From Vallitalea guaymasensis (lineage in GTDB: Bacteria > Bacillota > Clostridia > Lachnospirales > Vallitaleaceae), in contig NZ_CP058561.1 in NCBI RefSeq assembly GCF_018141425.1, positions 1,612,001-1,676,000 on the forward strand: 64,000 nucleotides of DNA, in the 5' to 3' direction. The notes under the pieces were generated by a model, which did no database searches, was not told the DNA's origin, and saw nothing but the letters and a program-made list of their open reading frames with translations. The number at the start of each line of letters is the position of its first letter. Within the stretch, counting starts at the first letter, position 1. Both the position numbers and the translations under genes were made by a program. Below, in pieces: positions 3,281 through 56,842 of this stretch.

Positions 3281-3844
3281 TTATTCCTTTCTTATCTCCT
3301 CAACTTTTATAACTTTTCCTTTTTTAGGATTAAATTCATAATATTGATATGTTATTATGTATTTTACGTTATCTTTAGGTACTGCTTTATAACATCTTAA
3401 TATATTACTGCTTTCTTTATCACAATTAAGTTCTTTATCTTCTAGATATATATAATCTTTAAATTTAATTTGTCTAATTTTAAATTGATTAATACTAGTA
3501 ATTTCTATACTTACAGTTGATTTAAATTGAGATATAATCCACATACTTATACTAACTACAACAATAATTATTATAGTGCTGAAAAATATCCACTTTTTAA
3601 TTTTTTCTTTTTGTTTCACTGTATATGTTTTAGATAAAGTTCTTATACCACCAATAATCTGTAAAACAAAAATAGAATAAGCAAAGATTGAAAATGAAAT
3701 CAAACCTATTTTTTCATTCATTTCACTTAATGCCTTAATAAATATTATAGTATATATTATTCCTACACCAAGACCCATTATTAATAGCAATAAACCCTGC
3801 GCTTTTTTATTATCTAGATTTTTATTGAAATTTTGATCTTTCAC
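3281..3844 (-). CDS. Three-helix membrane protein, accessory paralog B
   Basis: 187 residues. Helices at about 15-38 (LLLLIMGLGVGIIYTIIFI), 50-68 (SFSIFAYSIFVLQIIGG) and 85-105 (FFSTIIIIVVVSISMWII), then an outside beta-rich domain of about 80 residues ending ITYQYYEFNPKKGKVIKVEE. The start is GTG 3844 with AAGGAGA upstream. It is clearly homologous to the protein at 4849-5502: the first 65 residues are nearly identical, also in DNA, and the outside domain is divergent. This is the pattern expected of membrane immunity or accessory proteins that diversify in the part facing a toxin. Confidence 0.65.
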   Translation of the reverse strand: MKDQNFNKNLDNKKAQGLLLLIMGLGVGIIYTIIFIKALSEMNEKIGLISFSIFAYSIFVLQIIGGIRTLSKTYTVKQKEKIKKWIFFSTIIIIVVVSISMWIISQFKSTVSIEITSINQFKIRQIKFKDYIYLEDKELNCDKESSNILRCYKAVPKDNVKYIITYQYYEFNPKKGKVIKVEEIRKE

Positions 3845-3891
3845 TTTATATAATCTCCTTTTGTTACTGAATACATATTCAAGTCTTTATG

Positions 3892-4309
3892 AGTTAAATT
3901 GAATTCCCTAAGCGTTGCTAATAACCTTATATATTTCTATTTTTTCCCACATAAGAATGATAACAGTTCCTACTAAGTAGCAATAAATGTCTTTTATATC
4001 AAATGTTCTTCCAATAATAGTTGACATTAAGATGTTATCTTCAAAATTTTCTGCTAGGTTAAAATATTGAGCTATTTCTACAACTATTGCAACAAGCAAA
4101 AGATATATAGGTAAAAACTTTATCTTCTTTTGATGTATACCTCTTATAAAGGTATACATTAAAATAACTATTAAAACATCTCCAATATATGGTCTAATAA
4201 ACATATCATGTATATATATAGCAATAAAAAATTCTGTTATTAATAGAATCAAAAAAGTTAATAAATAATATTTTCTCTTCATTTCATATCTCTTTCTATT
4301 ATTAGTCAA
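3892..4309 (-). repeat. 418-bp near-identical direct repeat, copy 2 (DUF2809 gene)
   Basis: Second copy of the block at 2021-2438, offset 1871 bases and ungapped. The right-hand boundary is the same base as in copy 1 (after …TTAGTCAA); the following bases differ completely. Confidence 0.95.
3908..4282 (-). CDS. DUF2809 family membrane protein, copy 2
   Basis: Near-identical to the DUF2809 protein at 2037 (about four residue changes, including LAENFEDN and IEIYKV). Four predicted membrane helices. Same start question: ATG at 4282 preferred, TTG at 4309 possible. It closes the first accessory cassette, after the membrane protein at 4849 and the cytosolic protein at 4364. Two such similar copies this close may be maintained by recombination. 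The role in the toxin locus is not known. Confidence 0.8.
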   Translation of the reverse strand: MKRKYYLLTFLILLITEFFIAIYIHDMFIRPYIGDVLIVILMYTFIRGIHQKKIKFLPIYLLLVAIVVEIAQYFNLAENFEDNILMSTIIGRTFDIKDIYCYLVGTVIILMWEKIEIYKVISNA

Positions 4310-4848: not shown

Positions 4849-5502
4849 TTATTCATTTTTTATTTTATCTATTTTTAATACTGTTCCCTTTTTATGATTA
4901 AATGAGTAATATTGATACGTTATAATATATTTAGTATTTTCATTTGGAACCACCTTATATTCCCAAAGTACACCATAATTATCTTCGTTACATTCAAGTT
5001 TTATTTGTTTATCTTTAAGGTACACATATTTTTTTAACTGTACTTCTTCAATATCAAAGGAATTAGTATTTGTAACTTCAAATGTTTTTATAAGTTTAAA
5101 TTGTTCTTTCGACCATGTACCTATACCAATCATAATAATTATTAAAGCACTACTAAGAATGACTCTCTTCTTTATCCTTTTGAAATGTTCTTTAGAGTAT
5201 GCTTTGGATAAAGTTCTTATACCACCAATTATCTGTAAGATAAAAATACTATAAGCGAAGATTGAAAATACAATGAAACCTTTTTTTTCGTCCATTTCAC
5301 CTAATGACTTAATAAATATTATAGTATATATTATTCCTACACCAAGACCCATTATTAATAGCAATAGACCGAGTGCTTTTTTATTGGCTGGATTTTTATA
5401 GGCTGGGGGAACATTTCCCCCTAAATAGTGTCCTGGGTCATATTGATGTTCCATCCATTCATTAATATCTTCAATATTTTTATCATCATTTTGATTCTTC
5501 AC
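4849..5502 (-). CDS. Three-helix membrane protein, accessory paralog A
   Basis: 217 residues from GTG 5502, with GGAGG about 9 bases upstream; this start matches the paralog at 3281, and the longer frame to 5550 would overlap the toxin gene. It has a 40-residue cytosolic head (DINEWMEHQYDPGHYLGGNV) absent from paralog B, then three helices nearly identical to B, then a divergent outside domain ending ITYQYYSFNHKKGTVLKIDK. The start is 16 bases after the stop of the toxin gene, so it is the first gene behind the toxin and the best placed membrane immunity candidate. Confidence 0.65.
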   Translation of the reverse strand: MKNQNDDKNIEDINEWMEHQYDPGHYLGGNVPPAYKNPANKKALGLLLLIMGLGVGIIYTIIFIKSLGEMDEKKGFIVFSIFAYSIFILQIIGGIRTLSKAYSKEHFKRIKKRVILSSALIIIMIGIGTWSKEQFKLIKTFEVTNTNSFDIEEVQLKKYVYLKDKQIKLECNEDNYGVLWEYKVVPNENTKYIITYQYYSFNHKKGTVLKIDKIKNE

Positions 5503-29807: not shown

Positions 29808-30017
29808 CAGATAAGTCAGAAAAAGTATTTTGTTCTGACTTGGCTTTTGCAAAATAGTATATGTATATGTTTCGCCAGCTACTTGCTCGTCCTGAGCAAA
29901 AAGCTGGGTTCGGCATCCTGCCTCACTACTTCACATATACATATACTATTTTGCTGCCTAGTGAGCGTTAGTATAATCACAAAACACTTTTTCTTCTAAA
30001 TTAGCAAACTATTGGCT
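29808..30017. repeat. 210-bp folded dispersed repeat, copy 1
   Basis: A strongly folded block also present at 54370-54580. Nested arms: outer 29818-29833 with 29979-29994 (15 of 16), middle 29849-29870 with 29933-29954 (22 of 22), inner CCAGCT-AGCTGG with TTGCTC-GAGCAA (29875-29909), and a small GGCA/TGCC hairpin near 29911-29922. The two copies differ at paired positions in a way that keeps pairing. It carries no reading frame. It could be a non-autonomous mobile element (MITE) or the gene of a structured RNA. It fills the gap between the FtsX-type permease and the acyltransferase. Confidence 0.85.
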
Positions 30018-32804: not shown

Positions 32805-33525
32805 ACCACCACCCGTAAAACGGGTGGTTTGCACTTACCCTATAAGGGTATATTACTAGCTGAGTCTCAAGACTCATTGAATAGTCTGCCAACTGCATCT
32901 ATTCTCAAGTTACACCTAAAGGTGTTTTCATTAGCCTTTTATTATCGGCTTACCCGTAAACGGGTCAATATATTCCTTCAGACTTAATTGATCTGAGGCT
33001 ATATCTTCTTGTAATTGATTTCTTATATACTGTTCTATTGCCTTCTTGTTCCTTCCTACTGTATCTACAAAATATCCTTTACACCAAAATTTTCTATTCC
33101 CATATTTATATTTTAAATTAGCATGTCTGTCAAATATCATCAGCGAACTTTTTCCTTTTAGATATCCTACAAACTGTGATACACTTAATTTAGGTGGTAC
33201 ACTTACTAACATATGTATGTGATCTTTACATGCATTTGCTTCTATTATTTCTACGCCTTTATACTCACATAATTTACGAATTATCTGCCCAATATCTTTT
33301 TTTATCTTTCCATAAATTATTTGACGTCTGTATTTTGGTGCAAATACTATATGATATTTGCAATTCCATTTGGTATGTGCTAAACTTTTGTTGTCCATTT
33401 GGACTTCCTCCTTTGTCTATTATAGATGCGGTCGGCAAACCTGCTTCTATCTTAGCATTGGAGGTTATTTTTTTCTACTCATAGCTATAAGCTTTTTAGA
33501 ACCACAGGCATAGCCTGTGGTATTC
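32805..33525 (-). mobile_element. IS200-type insertion sequence (IS200/IS605 family)
   Basis: About 720 bases with one transposase gene and subterminal hairpins instead of inverted repeats: ACCACCCGT/ACGGGTGGT at 32808-32828 on the right end and ACCACAGGC/GCCTGTGGT at 33501-33521 on the left end (5' of tnpA). Further hairpins lie between tnpA stop and right end (TACCCT/AGGGTA, GAGTCT/AGACTC, CACC/GGTG). Exact ends are not fixed by target duplications, because the family makes none. No tnpB is present. Confidence 0.9.
32931..33398 (-). CDS. tnpA: IS200/IS605 transposase TnpA (Y1 HUH)
   Basis: 155 residues, full length. HUH motif DHIHML near residue 60, catalytic tyrosine in KAIEQYIRNQ near 128, and the usual KWNCKYHIVFAPKYRR start. 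It cuts and joins single-stranded DNA at the hairpin ends during peel-and-paste transposition. AAAGGAGG lies before the ATG. No disruption is seen, so it is probably active. Confidence 0.97.
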   Translation of the reverse strand: MDNKSLAHTKWNCKYHIVFAPKYRRQIIYGKIKKDIGQIIRKLCEYKGVEIIEANACKDHIHMLVSVPPKLSVSQFVGYLKGKSSLMIFDRHANLKYKYGNRKFWCKGYFVDTVGRNKKAIEQYIRNQLQEDIASDQLSLKEYIDPFTGKPIIKG

Positions 33526-39754: not shown

Positions 39755-42553
39755 TTAATACTGTGGAACTATAACTTTTACATTTGCTCCCTCTTCCACA
39801 ATTATTTCTTGCCATTTACCCTTAGTTTCATAAGAGTCACCTTTGTATCTTATGACATTTTCATTTACTTCATAAGTAACCGTCTCTGCATCTTCCAAAG
39901 CTTTTAGTCTCTTCTTGTTATTATCATATATTAATAGATGAGCACCATAATCAGTACCATTGTACAATAAATAATAGTCTACTTCTGTATCACTTTTATC
40001 AAGCTCATAGATTTTATCTACAGACATTATTTCTAATGGTGCTGGACCATCATAACAGATTAAGAAGTAAATATTATCTTTATGTATTGCCAGTATATAT
40101 GGATAAGTGATGTTCGCCATTATTATGCTTTCTTTTCTTGAAGGGTCATATTTAACTAAATATCCACTACAATCATAGAATAAATAGTCATCACTCCATT
40201 TGAAATCTGAACCTTCAATAGTATCAATTATCTCAAATTTGTTCAGGTCAATAATATTTATGTTATTATTTCCTTTTTCATCAATAGCTATATAGCTATT
40301 GGACGCTTCGAAGTGCAATCTTGAATTCTCAACTTTTAATGATTCAGTCATTTTGTTTTCAAGATTAATCCTGTTCAATACGTCCTCATCAACTGGTCTA
40401 AAATACCCATGATCGCCTATTAATTCCAAGTCACTTACATAAGAATCATCATATAGTGTTATGGTCGACCCACTATTGAAATCGTAATAATATAAATATG
40501 CTCTATCTTCAAAACCTGTATATAAAACACCTTTATCTGTAATACTATATAGTCTTACTGGCTCAGAAATAATTTTATTCCATTTATCCTTTTCAAGACT
40601 ATATAGGGAGTTGGTTTCATATTCTTTAAAAACTTTGTGGTTATCTGCCATCTTATAATCACTTAAACGATAATTTCCACTAGGTGTCTCTAGTGGTACA
40701 TATTCTGAATCTAAGACTTTGTGGTTAGTATCTTCCATAACATCTTCCTCTACATATTCAGAATATATATTGACATATAACATATCGTCAACAACCATAT
40801 TGTTATATATTTCTGATTTATTTATATAATAAGGCTTAAAAATATGTTTATCTGTATCAAGTATATATGAACTATCCACATCACTATATGTATATCCATT
40901 ATCAGGGTTGTATCTAATCTCTTGTTCTGTTTTTATGGTATTCCACTCTTTATCAGTACGATCATAATAATATAAGATCTGATATCCGATAATTCCTATT
41001 CCTTTTTCATCATACCCCATCTTTAAATAGTTGTTATACTGTTCTTCATAAGCAGCTTCCCAAATCTCATCTGGAATGATTGTGTCAAGTTTTCTTTTGC
41101 CCTCTTTATTTATAGTATATATAGCTTTTTCTTCTGCATTAATGTAAGTTATATTTTCATTAACTGAGTCAAATATTATATTGTCGAAGGACATTTTTTC
41201 ACCTAGGAAATTATTATCAACAACTCTACTTTTATATTCTTCATCAATATAACATATCTCATCACTTCCATTTAATCCAACATAGTAATCATCAATATTC
41301 ATAAATCTGGTAACACCATTATATGGTTTTTCTAATATATAACATACATCATACTCAGAATTACTTTTTACTATATCACCATTTTTTAATAAGAAATAAT
41401 TGGTCCCGTTATAATTACCATCTAATAATTTTTCTTCTTCAACAATCTTACCATTATCAAAGATCCAATATCCTTCATTGATAATATAATGGTGTTCATA
41501 CTTTTTATTATAACTAGGGTCTTGGTTTATCAGTACTGTATAGGAATATAACTGTGGGTAATTATTATCTATAGATATATCAGCCTCGTATAATTTATCA
41601 TCTTTTTTAGCATATAATTTCAACTCACATTTTTCATTTCTTTCAAGAATATATTTAATTGAATCAATCTCTGTTTTTATATCCAATTGAATTACGTCTA
41701 ATAAAGCAAAAGATTTATTGCATATAGCTACATAACGGTTATCTTCATTTTTATACTCAACAAATATTGTGTTATCACTTGTATACATATCAACTACATC
41801 GTCTTTGAATCGTTGTTTTTTAACAAAAGTTATTCCATCTTTACCATATGAATATGTATCAATGAATTTCTTATCTTCTTTATCATAGATCAAATAAAAT
41901 GATGTTATACCTGCTGATATCAGCTTAAAGTTACTTGCATCACTGTAATTCTTAAATTTATAGTCAATCATTGATTTATTAAAATAATCAGTACAATCAA
42001 AACATATTTCCCCTAGCTCTTTGTCATAGGATAATAATACAATATGGTCATCCCATCCTAGATAACCTGACTGTAAACTGTATTTACTATTGATTAAAAT
42101 GCTCTCATCATCTTCACTAGCATAATCATTACCAAACGAAAACAGAGCTTGTTTTTTATTCCCTATCAATAATTGAAAAGAACAAACATAACTGGAATAA
42201 TTCCAATCAATACCACCATGTTTCTTAATGACAACATCTTCTATTGTGAAATCATCAGGTAGAATTACATTAGGAAAAATTATTTGTTCAGGTGATTCAT
42301 TGGTGATACTAAAATCATCCTCAGTAAAGTTTTTAGCATCAATACTTAACTCTTGGTCGCTTATTCTTATTATGTCAGCTTCCTGCTCAGGCTGTTCTTT
42401 TGAATCTGCATCATTAATATCTTCTTCATCTTGCTTACCTGACATTGTTCCTGATTCTTCTGTAGTAGAAGTTGGTTCATCCTTAGTGGAACAACCTGTA
42501 ATAAATATAGCTAGAAAAGTAATTATTATTATAGTTGCATTAAATTTTTTCAT
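39755..42553 (-). CDS. Large lipoprotein, beta-propeller-like
   Basis: 932 residues. Signal peptide and lipobox FITGC (about Cys21), then an acidic low-complexity linker (KDEPTSTTEESGTMSGKQDE and on to 60), then a long chain of short repeating beta units (VEYKNEDNRYVAICNKSFAL, YVGLNGSDEICYIDEEYKSR, LYSLEKDKWNKIISEPVRLY, YIAIDEKGNNNINIIDLNKF) as in DUF5050/WD40-like propellers. No catalytic motif. It is a surface-bound protein of unknown ligand. Upstream of the A2M/MEMO pair and in the same direction, but separated by a 268-base gap. Confidence 0.7.
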   Translation of the reverse strand: MKKFNATIIIITFLAIFITGCSTKDEPTSTTEESGTMSGKQDEEDINDADSKEQPEQEADIIRISDQELSIDAKNFTEDDFSITNESPEQIIFPNVILPDDFTIEDVVIKKHGGIDWNYSSYVCSFQLLIGNKKQALFSFGNDYASEDDESILINSKYSLQSGYLGWDDHIVLLSYDKELGEICFDCTDYFNKSMIDYKFKNYSDASNFKLISAGITSFYLIYDKEDKKFIDTYSYGKDGITFVKKQRFKDDVVDMYTSDNTIFVEYKNEDNRYVAICNKSFALLDVIQLDIKTEIDSIKYILERNEKCELKLYAKKDDKLYEADISIDNNYPQLYSYTVLINQDPSYNKKYEHHYIINEGYWIFDNGKIVEEEKLLDGNYNGTNYFLLKNGDIVKSNSEYDVCYILEKPYNGVTRFMNIDDYYVGLNGSDEICYIDEEYKSRVVDNNFLGEKMSFDNIIFDSVNENITYINAEEKAIYTINKEGKRKLDTIIPDEIWEAAYEEQYNNYLKMGYDEKGIGIIGYQILYYYDRTDKEWNTIKTEQEIRYNPDNGYTYSDVDSSYILDTDKHIFKPYYINKSEIYNNMVVDDMLYVNIYSEYVEEDVMEDTNHKVLDSEYVPLETPSGNYRLSDYKMADNHKVFKEYETNSLYSLEKDKWNKIISEPVRLYSITDKGVLYTGFEDRAYLYYYDFNSGSTITLYDDSYVSDLELIGDHGYFRPVDEDVLNRINLENKMTESLKVENSRLHFEASNSYIAIDEKGNNNINIIDLNKFEIIDTIEGSDFKWSDDYLFYDCSGYLVKYDPSRKESIIMANITYPYILAIHKDNIYFLICYDGPAPLEIMSVDKIYELDKSDTEVDYYLLYNGTDYGAHLLIYDNNKKRLKALEDAETVTYEVNENVIRYKGDSYETKGKWQEIIVEEGANVKVIVPQY

Positions 42554-54369: not shown

Positions 54370-54580
54370 CAGATAAGTCAGAAAAAATGTTTTGTTCGGA
54401 CTTGGTTTTCGCAAAATAGTATGTGTATATGTTACGCCAGCAAATTGCTCGTCCTGAGCAAATTGCTGGATTCGGCGTCCATGCCTCATTACTCCACATA
54501 TACACATACTATTTTACTAATAAGTAATCTTCAATGTTATCACAAAACACTTTTTCTTCTATATGGAATTACTCTTGGCT
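54370..54580. repeat. 210-bp folded dispersed repeat, copy 2
   Basis: Matches 29808-30017 over its full length, about 80% identical by eye. The middle 22-bp stem has A-T here changed to G-C on both arms, and the inner stem reads CCAGCAA / TTGCTGG in place of CCAGCT / AGCTGG. The outer ACAAAACACTTTTTCT arm is identical in both. It lies between the LytTR-fusion gene and the AraC-BtrH gene, followed by that gene's terminator. Confidence 0.85.
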
Positions 54581-56168: not shown

Positions 56169-56360
56169 ATTTTTATCTCCTCTATATTAATTCTTCCGGA
56201 AGTAAATTTATTATATCATTAAATATATAGTAATACTCGACATTTTTGACCTTATATATTATATTAATAATTAATTTACCTTAATAACTACTACATTTTA
56301 TGAATAGTAAAATTATTAAAATTAGTGTATAATAAAAATAATCATAATGGAGGTGAAAAT

Positions 56361-56540
56361 ATGAATACCATAAAAAAAGAAGTTATAAATATTATTACAA
56401 AACTCCCAGATGATGTATCTATAGATGATATCATGTATAAATTATATGTATTAGATAAAGTAAAAAAAGGGCAAGAAGATATTAAAAATGGCAATTTTAT
56501 AACAAATGACGAACTTAGAGAGGAAATAGAAACATGGTAA
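56361..56540 (+). CDS. Antitoxin of type II toxin-antitoxin pair
   Basis: 59 residues from ATG 56361 with GGAGGTGA upstream; the frame extends to 56325. Helical: MNTIKKEVINIITKLPDDVS, then IDDIMYKLYVLDKVKKGQED, then DELREEIETW. It resembles short RelB/ParD-like antitoxins with the toxin-wrapping part at the C-terminus. The last 7 bases overlap the toxin gene, as usual for such pairs. Confidence 0.8.
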   Translation: MNTIKKEVINIITKLPDDVSIDDIMYKLYVLDKVKKGQEDIKNGNFITNDELREEIETW

Positions 56541-56842
56541 AATGGTCCAATTCAGCTAAACTTGACTTGCGACAGATTTATAATTATATTTCTACCAACT
56601 CAGAATTTTATGCTAAAAAAGTAATTAATGATATCATTTATAAGTCAGATAATCTGAACAATTTTCCATCTATTGGGAAAGAAGTAAATGAATTTAATAA
56701 TCCTTTAATCAGAGAAATATATGTATATTCTTATCGTATGATATATCAAATAGTTTCAAATAATAATGTTGAAATATTAGCTATAGTTCATACCAAAAGA
56801 AATTTGAAGTTAAATGATGATACTGATACTATAGAAAAGTAG
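56534..56842 (+). CDS. RelE/ParE-family toxin
   Basis: 102 residues, full length. Family hallmarks: WSNSAKLDLRQIYNYI, a helix pair, IGKEVNEFNNPLIREIYVYS, YRMIYQIV and the last strand VEILAIVHTKRNL. RelE members cut ribosome-bound mRNA, ParE members block gyrase; the sequence does not settle which. Immediately downstream and convergent is the WYL regulator pair of the rtcB locus. Confidence 0.9.
   Translation: MVKWSNSAKLDLRQIYNYISTNSEFYAKKVINDIIYKSDNLNNFPSIGKEVNEFNNPLIREIYVYSYRMIYQIVSNNNVEILAIVHTKRNLKLNDDTDTIEK

Follow-up and report, generated by a model that had tools for sequence, protein, structure and literature searches.

The folded repeat that occurs twice in a 64,000-nucleotide stretch of the Vallitalea guaymasensis genome (NZ_CP058561.1, positions 1,612,001 to 1,676,000 of the forward strand; hereafter the window) is, with a probability that we put at about 0.85, a structured RNA related to TwoAYGGAY, an RNA with the Rfam entry RF01731 that is listed in PMC2864571. 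Its two copies, at 29808-30017 (copy 1) and from 54370 (copy 2), are members of one dispersed repeat family. They had been described before from the letters of the window alone (the sequence-only reading), which recognized neither the minus strand as the informative one nor the link to TwoAYGGAY and CsrA.

Both copies were present where the sequence-only reading had placed them, and the base changes that it named between them are real: an A-T pair is replaced by G-C in the 22-bp stem, T-A by A-T beside CCAGC, and A by G at the foot of the small loop. The folds of both copies were far below those of their shuffles (z -8.0 for copy 1 and -7.0 for copy 2), and none of 200 shuffles was as low for either. 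The proposed unit of 210 bp held up in part, as the core is constrained (table 1) and the outer 15-bp arms are weak by themselves. Both copies had also been placed next to minus-strand genes; such genes are indeed there, and each copy stands between two of them (crude open reading frames), the minus strand of the element therefore running in the same direction as these genes. Consensus scans around the window copies gave no promoter excess and no terminator alongside. Elsewhere in the window there are two pairs of direct repeats (1985-2284 with 3856-4155, and 3624-3825 with 5198-5399; 93% and 89% alike), two small overlapping plus-strand genes at 56325-56842 that by eye resemble an antitoxin-toxin (RelE/ParE-like) pair, and a SNORD36 match at 39984-40058 on the minus strand, just over its cut-off (E 0.71) and probably due to chance.

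Table 1. Features of the element in the window (R1 is the covariance model described in the text).
Feature	Position	Strand or pairing	Details and basis
Core of copy 1, predicted structured RNA	29849..29954	-	R1 (built in the plus sense) matches the plus strand with 120.6 bits
Predicted RNA strand of copy 1 core		minus	Wobble skew; RF01731 matches to relatives
Long stem, first arm	29849..29870	pairs with 29933-29954	Fold and covariation
Long stem, second arm	29933..29954		Fold and covariation
Hairpin 1 of RNA	29912..29922	-	GGC/GCC stem, loop AGGAT in copy 1; sequence, motif counts
Hairpin 2 of RNA	29883..29899	-	TTGCTC/GAGCAA stem, loop AGGAC; sequence, motif counts
Inner stem	29875..29907	CCAGC (29875-29879) with GCTGG (29903-29907)	Encloses hairpin 2
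Family-A outer arms	29818..29994	29818-29832 with 29980-29994	Complementary; covariation support weak
Core of copy 2	54411..54517	-	Same architecture as copy 1; full-length RF01731 match of 36.5 bits on the minus strand (locus L026)
Copy 2, loop of hairpin 1	54477-54482		ATGGAC
Copy 2, loop of hairpin 2	54451-54455		AGGAC

The genome-wide search that the sequence-only reading had proposed, run with copy 1, returned many further places. The 5.63-Mb genome holds at least 83 distinct ones, including 81 full cores, one truncated copy (L088, model positions 21-87) and one place with the stem arms only; these are the places whose flanks were fetched and searched with the model, and the genome has more copies. 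We used this number instead of the raw tally of 125 matches to R1, which may count one place on both strands. By sequence two families were recognized, A and B, of which 52 and 31 copies were compared in this genome. Family B was recovered via a shared module of about 65 nt; its stem sequence is unlike that of family A and its architecture is identical. At the DNA level family A was found in this genome and in the sister genome G005 (2 of 59 genomes), and it was absent from plasmids, phages and, by pattern search, viral contigs. The covariance model that had likewise been proposed (R1) was built from families A and B in the window-plus sense. It matched all six genomes of the genus. Across the order, in a survey that scored 13 candidates per genome and in which absences are weak, it matched 10 of 295 genomes. 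These 10, from four genera, comprised the six of the genus, three more from its family, among which G006 matched weakly (40 bits), and a single genome from a different family. Tandem arrangements of two or three copies, about 150-170 bp apart, were seen in genomes G002 and G035 (L238, L248, L227, L153), and 55-bp derivatives that lost the hairpins and kept both stem arms were seen at L028:1393-1447 and L271:859-913. A separate dispersed repeat of about 180 bp occurs at L012:1311-1490, where it adjoins the element, at L011 and L014, and on the G005 contigs C21, C61 and C67.

The sequence-only reading had offered selection on the fold as one explanation of the two-sided changes, and this part of it was borne out by pairing retained between families of different stem sequence, by mismatches skewed to one strand and by loop letters that are near-invariant. 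In the alignment of families A and B (15 sequences), 95.8% of the cells were paired as against 82.0% after shuffling, both-sided changes occurred in 16 of 30 pairs (9.5 when shuffled), and between the families 60 cells had both-sided changes that kept pairing (shuffled mean 19.6). This signal was lost when the stem partners were slid, and the number of pair types was not above that of the shuffles (433/500). Among 28 short family-A copies, both-sided changes were found in 11 of 51 pairs (shuffled mean 2.3, 0/500), eight of them in the four inner helices (36 pairs) and three in the outer arms. For the outer 15-bp arms alone, 11, 52, 32, 497 and 31 of 500 shuffles reached the five measures, and we dropped the idea of a strongly selected outer helix on account of this weak covariation. 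The local 5' hairpin was also weak (48, 76, 76, 40 and 40 shuffles reached the five measures), and a pseudoknot pairing the loop of that hairpin with the 3' arm was dropped for weak support.

Considering that R1 was built in the window-plus sense, its score is uninformative on the RNA strand, and mismatches were used for this purpose. Their types were counted over 159 places in nine genomes, in the long stem minus its outermost four pairs. In the window-plus sense A.C filled 45 cells versus 8 for G.T, with 22 others; counted as distinct events of genome, pair and type, A.C had 33 versus 7 for G.T (p 4e-5, shared descent uncorrected). Every genome with such cells was skewed alike, from 8:0 in G002 to 12:5 in G035. 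The skew was limited to the long stem, as the two short helices scored had none (A.C 5, G.T 6). Read from the minus strand, a plus-sense A.C mismatch becomes a G.U wobble, and the mismatch skew thus points to a minus-sense RNA. Our results demonstrated a strand-specific constraint, which is that of a minus-sense RNA or of single-stranded DNA of the same sense.

RF01731 has a gathering cut-off of 43 bits. At the gathering threshold there was no Rfam match to the element in the whole window or in 16 related loci. At a relaxed threshold RF01731 aligned over all of its 168 positions in five of eight loci, with 31.8-38.0 bits and always in the minus sense; copy 1 (L001), L095 and L180 had no RF01731 match even at an E value of 1. 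In the V. guaymasensis genome the model had 12 matches, of which two were over the cut-off (46.1 and 43.5 bits). In the reverse test three of the 20 RF01731 loci were matched by R1 with E values of at most 1.9e-4 (L253, L263 and L257); its alignment spans both hairpins only in L253, and the match in L257 is essentially the long stem. RF01731 itself is multi-copy in other genomes too: at E 0.01 the ten genomes scored had 26, 18, 18, 12 (V. guaymasensis), 11, 8, 3, 3, 2 and 1 matches. Like TwoAYGGAY, the element has two AYGGAY-type hairpins within one long stem, with the qualification that the 5-nt loops of family A have no Y base. We class the window copies as divergent relatives of TwoAYGGAY and, by the Rfam cut-off, not as formal members.

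The loops resemble the binding motif of the Csr/Rsm proteins. Read in the minus sense, both hairpins have A(N)GGA in 153 of 158 cores (one 55-nt arms-only match excluded). Of the five exceptions, L162, L209 and L210 differ by a single altered or missing base, L154 is degenerate and L088 is truncated. The motif is flanked by C and G, a C-G closure, in 150 of 154 and 155 of 156 cases, and the distance between the starts of the two motifs is 26-28 nt in 116 of the 121 short cores that show both. RNAfold drew exactly two hairpins in 123 cores, and in 120 of them the second loop was A(N)GGAC; among the 36 other cores, 22 of those listed have the own hairpins of the module. The hexaloop ANGGAC is found in family B and at many other loci, and the 5-nt loop AGGAC in most of family A and in several G002 copies. 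In PMC4005645, which describes RsmZ, the element recognized by CsrA/RsmE is A(N)GGAX, placed in a loop of 5 to 8 nt whose stem has a C-G closing pair, and the cores, which carry A(N)GGAX on C-G closed stems, agree with this description. According to the same account of RsmE, a hexaloop binds best and a missing N lowers affinity; the loops of family A lack this base. Identity with a CGTC-tagged REP was considered and dropped, as the motif of the element is found in loops and on the opposite strand.

The distribution of csrA was compared with that of RF01731. csrA was detected in 28 of 33 Clostridia genomes with RF01731 (E 1e-4) as against 97 of 358 without it (Fisher p 7e-11); the RF01731 survey scored 7 candidates per genome, which makes absences weak, and the RF01731 and csrA surveys were two 391-genome draws taken as an identical set because handles and totals agree. 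Counted by family, to which level the phylogeny was corrected, csrA accompanied RF01731 in 12 of 12 families and occurred in 26 of about 75 without it (p 1.5e-5), the total of 87 families being derived from family labels. Among genomes with RF01731 over the cut-off, csrA was found in 23 of 27. It was undetected in five of the 33 RF01731 genomes (G466, G506, G543, G560 and G602), three of which are under 90% complete. All ten genomes with R1 matches had csrA, and so did four of five others tested. The csrA of V. guaymasensis (PF02599) matches solved CsrA/RsmE chains and is flanked by genes that by eye resemble fliW and flagellin; the CsrA antagonist of Bacillus subtilis described in PMC7652899 is the protein FliW. 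As set out in PMC4333381, a hypothesis of 2014 regarded TwoAYGGAY as a CsrA-binding RNA of Clostridia, with validation then under way, and the co-occurrence of RF01731 and csrA is independent support for the proposal as worded there.

Based on these motifs and distributions, we propose that the element is an amplified and genome-dispersed relative of TwoAYGGAY RNA that would be transcribed from the minus strand of the window. The long stem, whose sequence varies between families, would display two short A(N)GGA hairpins, C-G closed and about 27 nt apart, and one CsrA dimer would grip both hairpins of a unit. Every transcribed copy would then be a docking site that titrates CsrA or tethers it to the transcript carrying the copy. 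Judged from sequence, CsrA docking is probably the function of the element, which we hold with less assurance than its kinship with TwoAYGGAY. Several results count against it: the window copies score under the Rfam cut-off, few RF01731 loci are matched by R1, the wobble skew is limited to the long stem, the loops of family A lack N, the orientation to genes varies, and the window copies have neither a promoter excess nor a terminator; the link to csrA, moreover, is corrected for phylogeny to family level only, and five RF01731 genomes are exceptions to it. More speculatively, the multiplied repeat may be a distributed chromosomal sponge for CsrA, made of dozens of twin-GGA units whose number would tune free CsrA, and with a 65-nt module, common to the two families, that is gained and lost at a single fixed position; we put this forward tentatively, as an idea with somewhat less than even chances.

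The module was found at 30 of the 83 places, 29 of them recognized by length and one being L088. Its position was identical in all 30 cases fetched from this genome, inside the CCAGC/GCTGG inner stem, in families A and B alike. Near-full matches to it numbered 32 in this genome and 6 in G005, and the other four genomes of the genus had none. At four loci only one of the two orthologous sites has it, with the long form here at L038, L039 and L083/L208 and in G005 at L004. The short G005 copy at L208 still has a base characteristic of long copies, and this suggests that the module was lost there. A different insert of about 30 nt lies between the two GGA hairpins at L219, L220 and L224 of genome G004.

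The orthologous sites of G005 bear on the history of the repeat. They were occupied at L001, L004, L038, L039, L083 and L201, as far as the G005 part was compared, and held remnants of the element at L006, L011, L023, L091, L190, L197 and L202. The element is missing from G005 at L189 and, for L208, at copy B, the gap being part of a larger indel or reaching back to the stem base; L007 had no recognizable G005 counterpart beyond the gene, and L010, L019, L020, L024 and L085 had a G005 match on one side or past a gap only. In the other direction, the site of one G005 copy is empty here, by a 332-bp indel beside the T-run of a terminator (L044 compared with L141). So many shared occupied or remnant sites suggest that the burst of family A mostly predates the split of the two genomes. 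The check for empty sites that the sequence-only reading had recommended yielded no clean insertion among the aligned sites, and the differences were internal deletions or larger indels. Its second suggestion, that the element is copied through a folded form, found no backing, in that the tests made gave no autonomous partner, no clear target duplication and no clean insertion.

There are two explanations in which the repeat is a mobile DNA. It may be a passive MITE or palindromic repeat, dispersed in many copies, whose both-sided changes came from correction between the arms at the DNA level (template switching), without selection acting on an RNA. In line with such correction, two-sided changes are frequent and wobble intermediates scarce; hairpin parts are deleted in the sister genome. 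No clear target-site duplication was found in either family when the longest words shared by the flanks were compared with those of re-paired flanks; the test was borderline for family A (52 copies, mean 7.56 versus 7.25 re-paired, 7 of 200 re-pairings as high) and flat for family B (31 copies, 98 of 200 as high). A passive repeat does not account for mismatches skewed to one strand, for loop letters that are near-invariant while the stems change, or for matches in four genera and the relation to RF01731, and the copies do not show the random one-sided changes that the sequence-only reading had named as favoring it; we regard it as quite unlikely. Strand-specific folding would also fit single-stranded DNA, and the element could be a non-autonomous one moved by a TnpA of the IS200/IS605 type, with the hairpins as transposase sites. 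An IS200-type Y1 transposase gene does lie in the window (32931-33398, minus strand), about 3 kb from copy 1, and the orientation bias of the repeat is lineage-specific; the edges of the transposase gene, however, carry no element copy. A search with the family-A end motif for an autonomous partner led back to known places in 39 of 43 hits, with no intact core found by R1 at the other four (one of which is a 55-bp arms-only match), and the idea of such a partner was dropped. Moreover, the ends of the element fade without a fixed boundary (45 copies), despite the 15-bp outer arms of family A, and together with the lack of a clean insertion among aligned sites this makes movement by TnpA very improbable.

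The remaining explanation grants selection on an RNA and assigns it to the untranslated regions of mRNAs, where the long stem would act in processing, stability or attenuation and the GGA loops would bind a protein other than CsrA or no protein. The element is intergenic, and in this genome 27 of the 52 copies of family A and 13 of the 31 of family B are co-directional with both neighbors. The orientation is reversed in two other genomes, however, with 18 of 25 copies in G002 and 14 of 16 in G035 opposed to both neighbors, and a constant orientation to genes is ruled out, as it differs by lineage. The uniform, C-G closed A(N)GGA loops, which closely fit recognition by Csr/Rsm proteins, also speak against this explanation, and we consider it unlikely. 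Orientation in this genome was associated with the genome half (78 places, three trial cuts, p 0.001-0.006). A purine riboswitch lies near an element copy in G035 (L179:2863-2962, minus strand).

If the element is indeed a relative of TwoAYGGAY that docks CsrA, a repeat family would be spreading docking sites for a global regulator through a genome, and about eighty copies in one genome make the link between TwoAYGGAY and CsrA directly testable. In a literature search of limited depth we met no earlier account of a repeat of this kind.

The element can be compared with three known systems. Like the MITEs and palindromic repeats bcr1 and REP, in so far as PMC3733652 describes them, it is dispersed, non-coding, folded and located between genes; it differs from that description in having no clear target duplication and no tagged palindrome of 20-40 bp, and in its conserved loops and strand-specific wobble. 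With the decoys CsrB and RsmZ, as portrayed in PMC4005645 and PMC7652899, it shares C-G-closed A(N)GGAX hairpin loops, several per molecule. In contrast to them, it has two loops per unit within one long stem and many dispersed copies, no terminator was seen beside its window copies, and its CsrA binding is putative. The closest likeness is to TwoAYGGAY, with which it has in common a long outer stem followed by two GGA-loop hairpins in identical order and on the same strand. The differences from TwoAYGGAY are that the window copies score under the cut-off, that family A has mostly 5-nt AGGAC loops, that 30 of 83 places carry the module in the inner stem, and that the element is more numerous, with 81 full cores extracted here as against 26 for the highest RF01731 count in the ten genomes.
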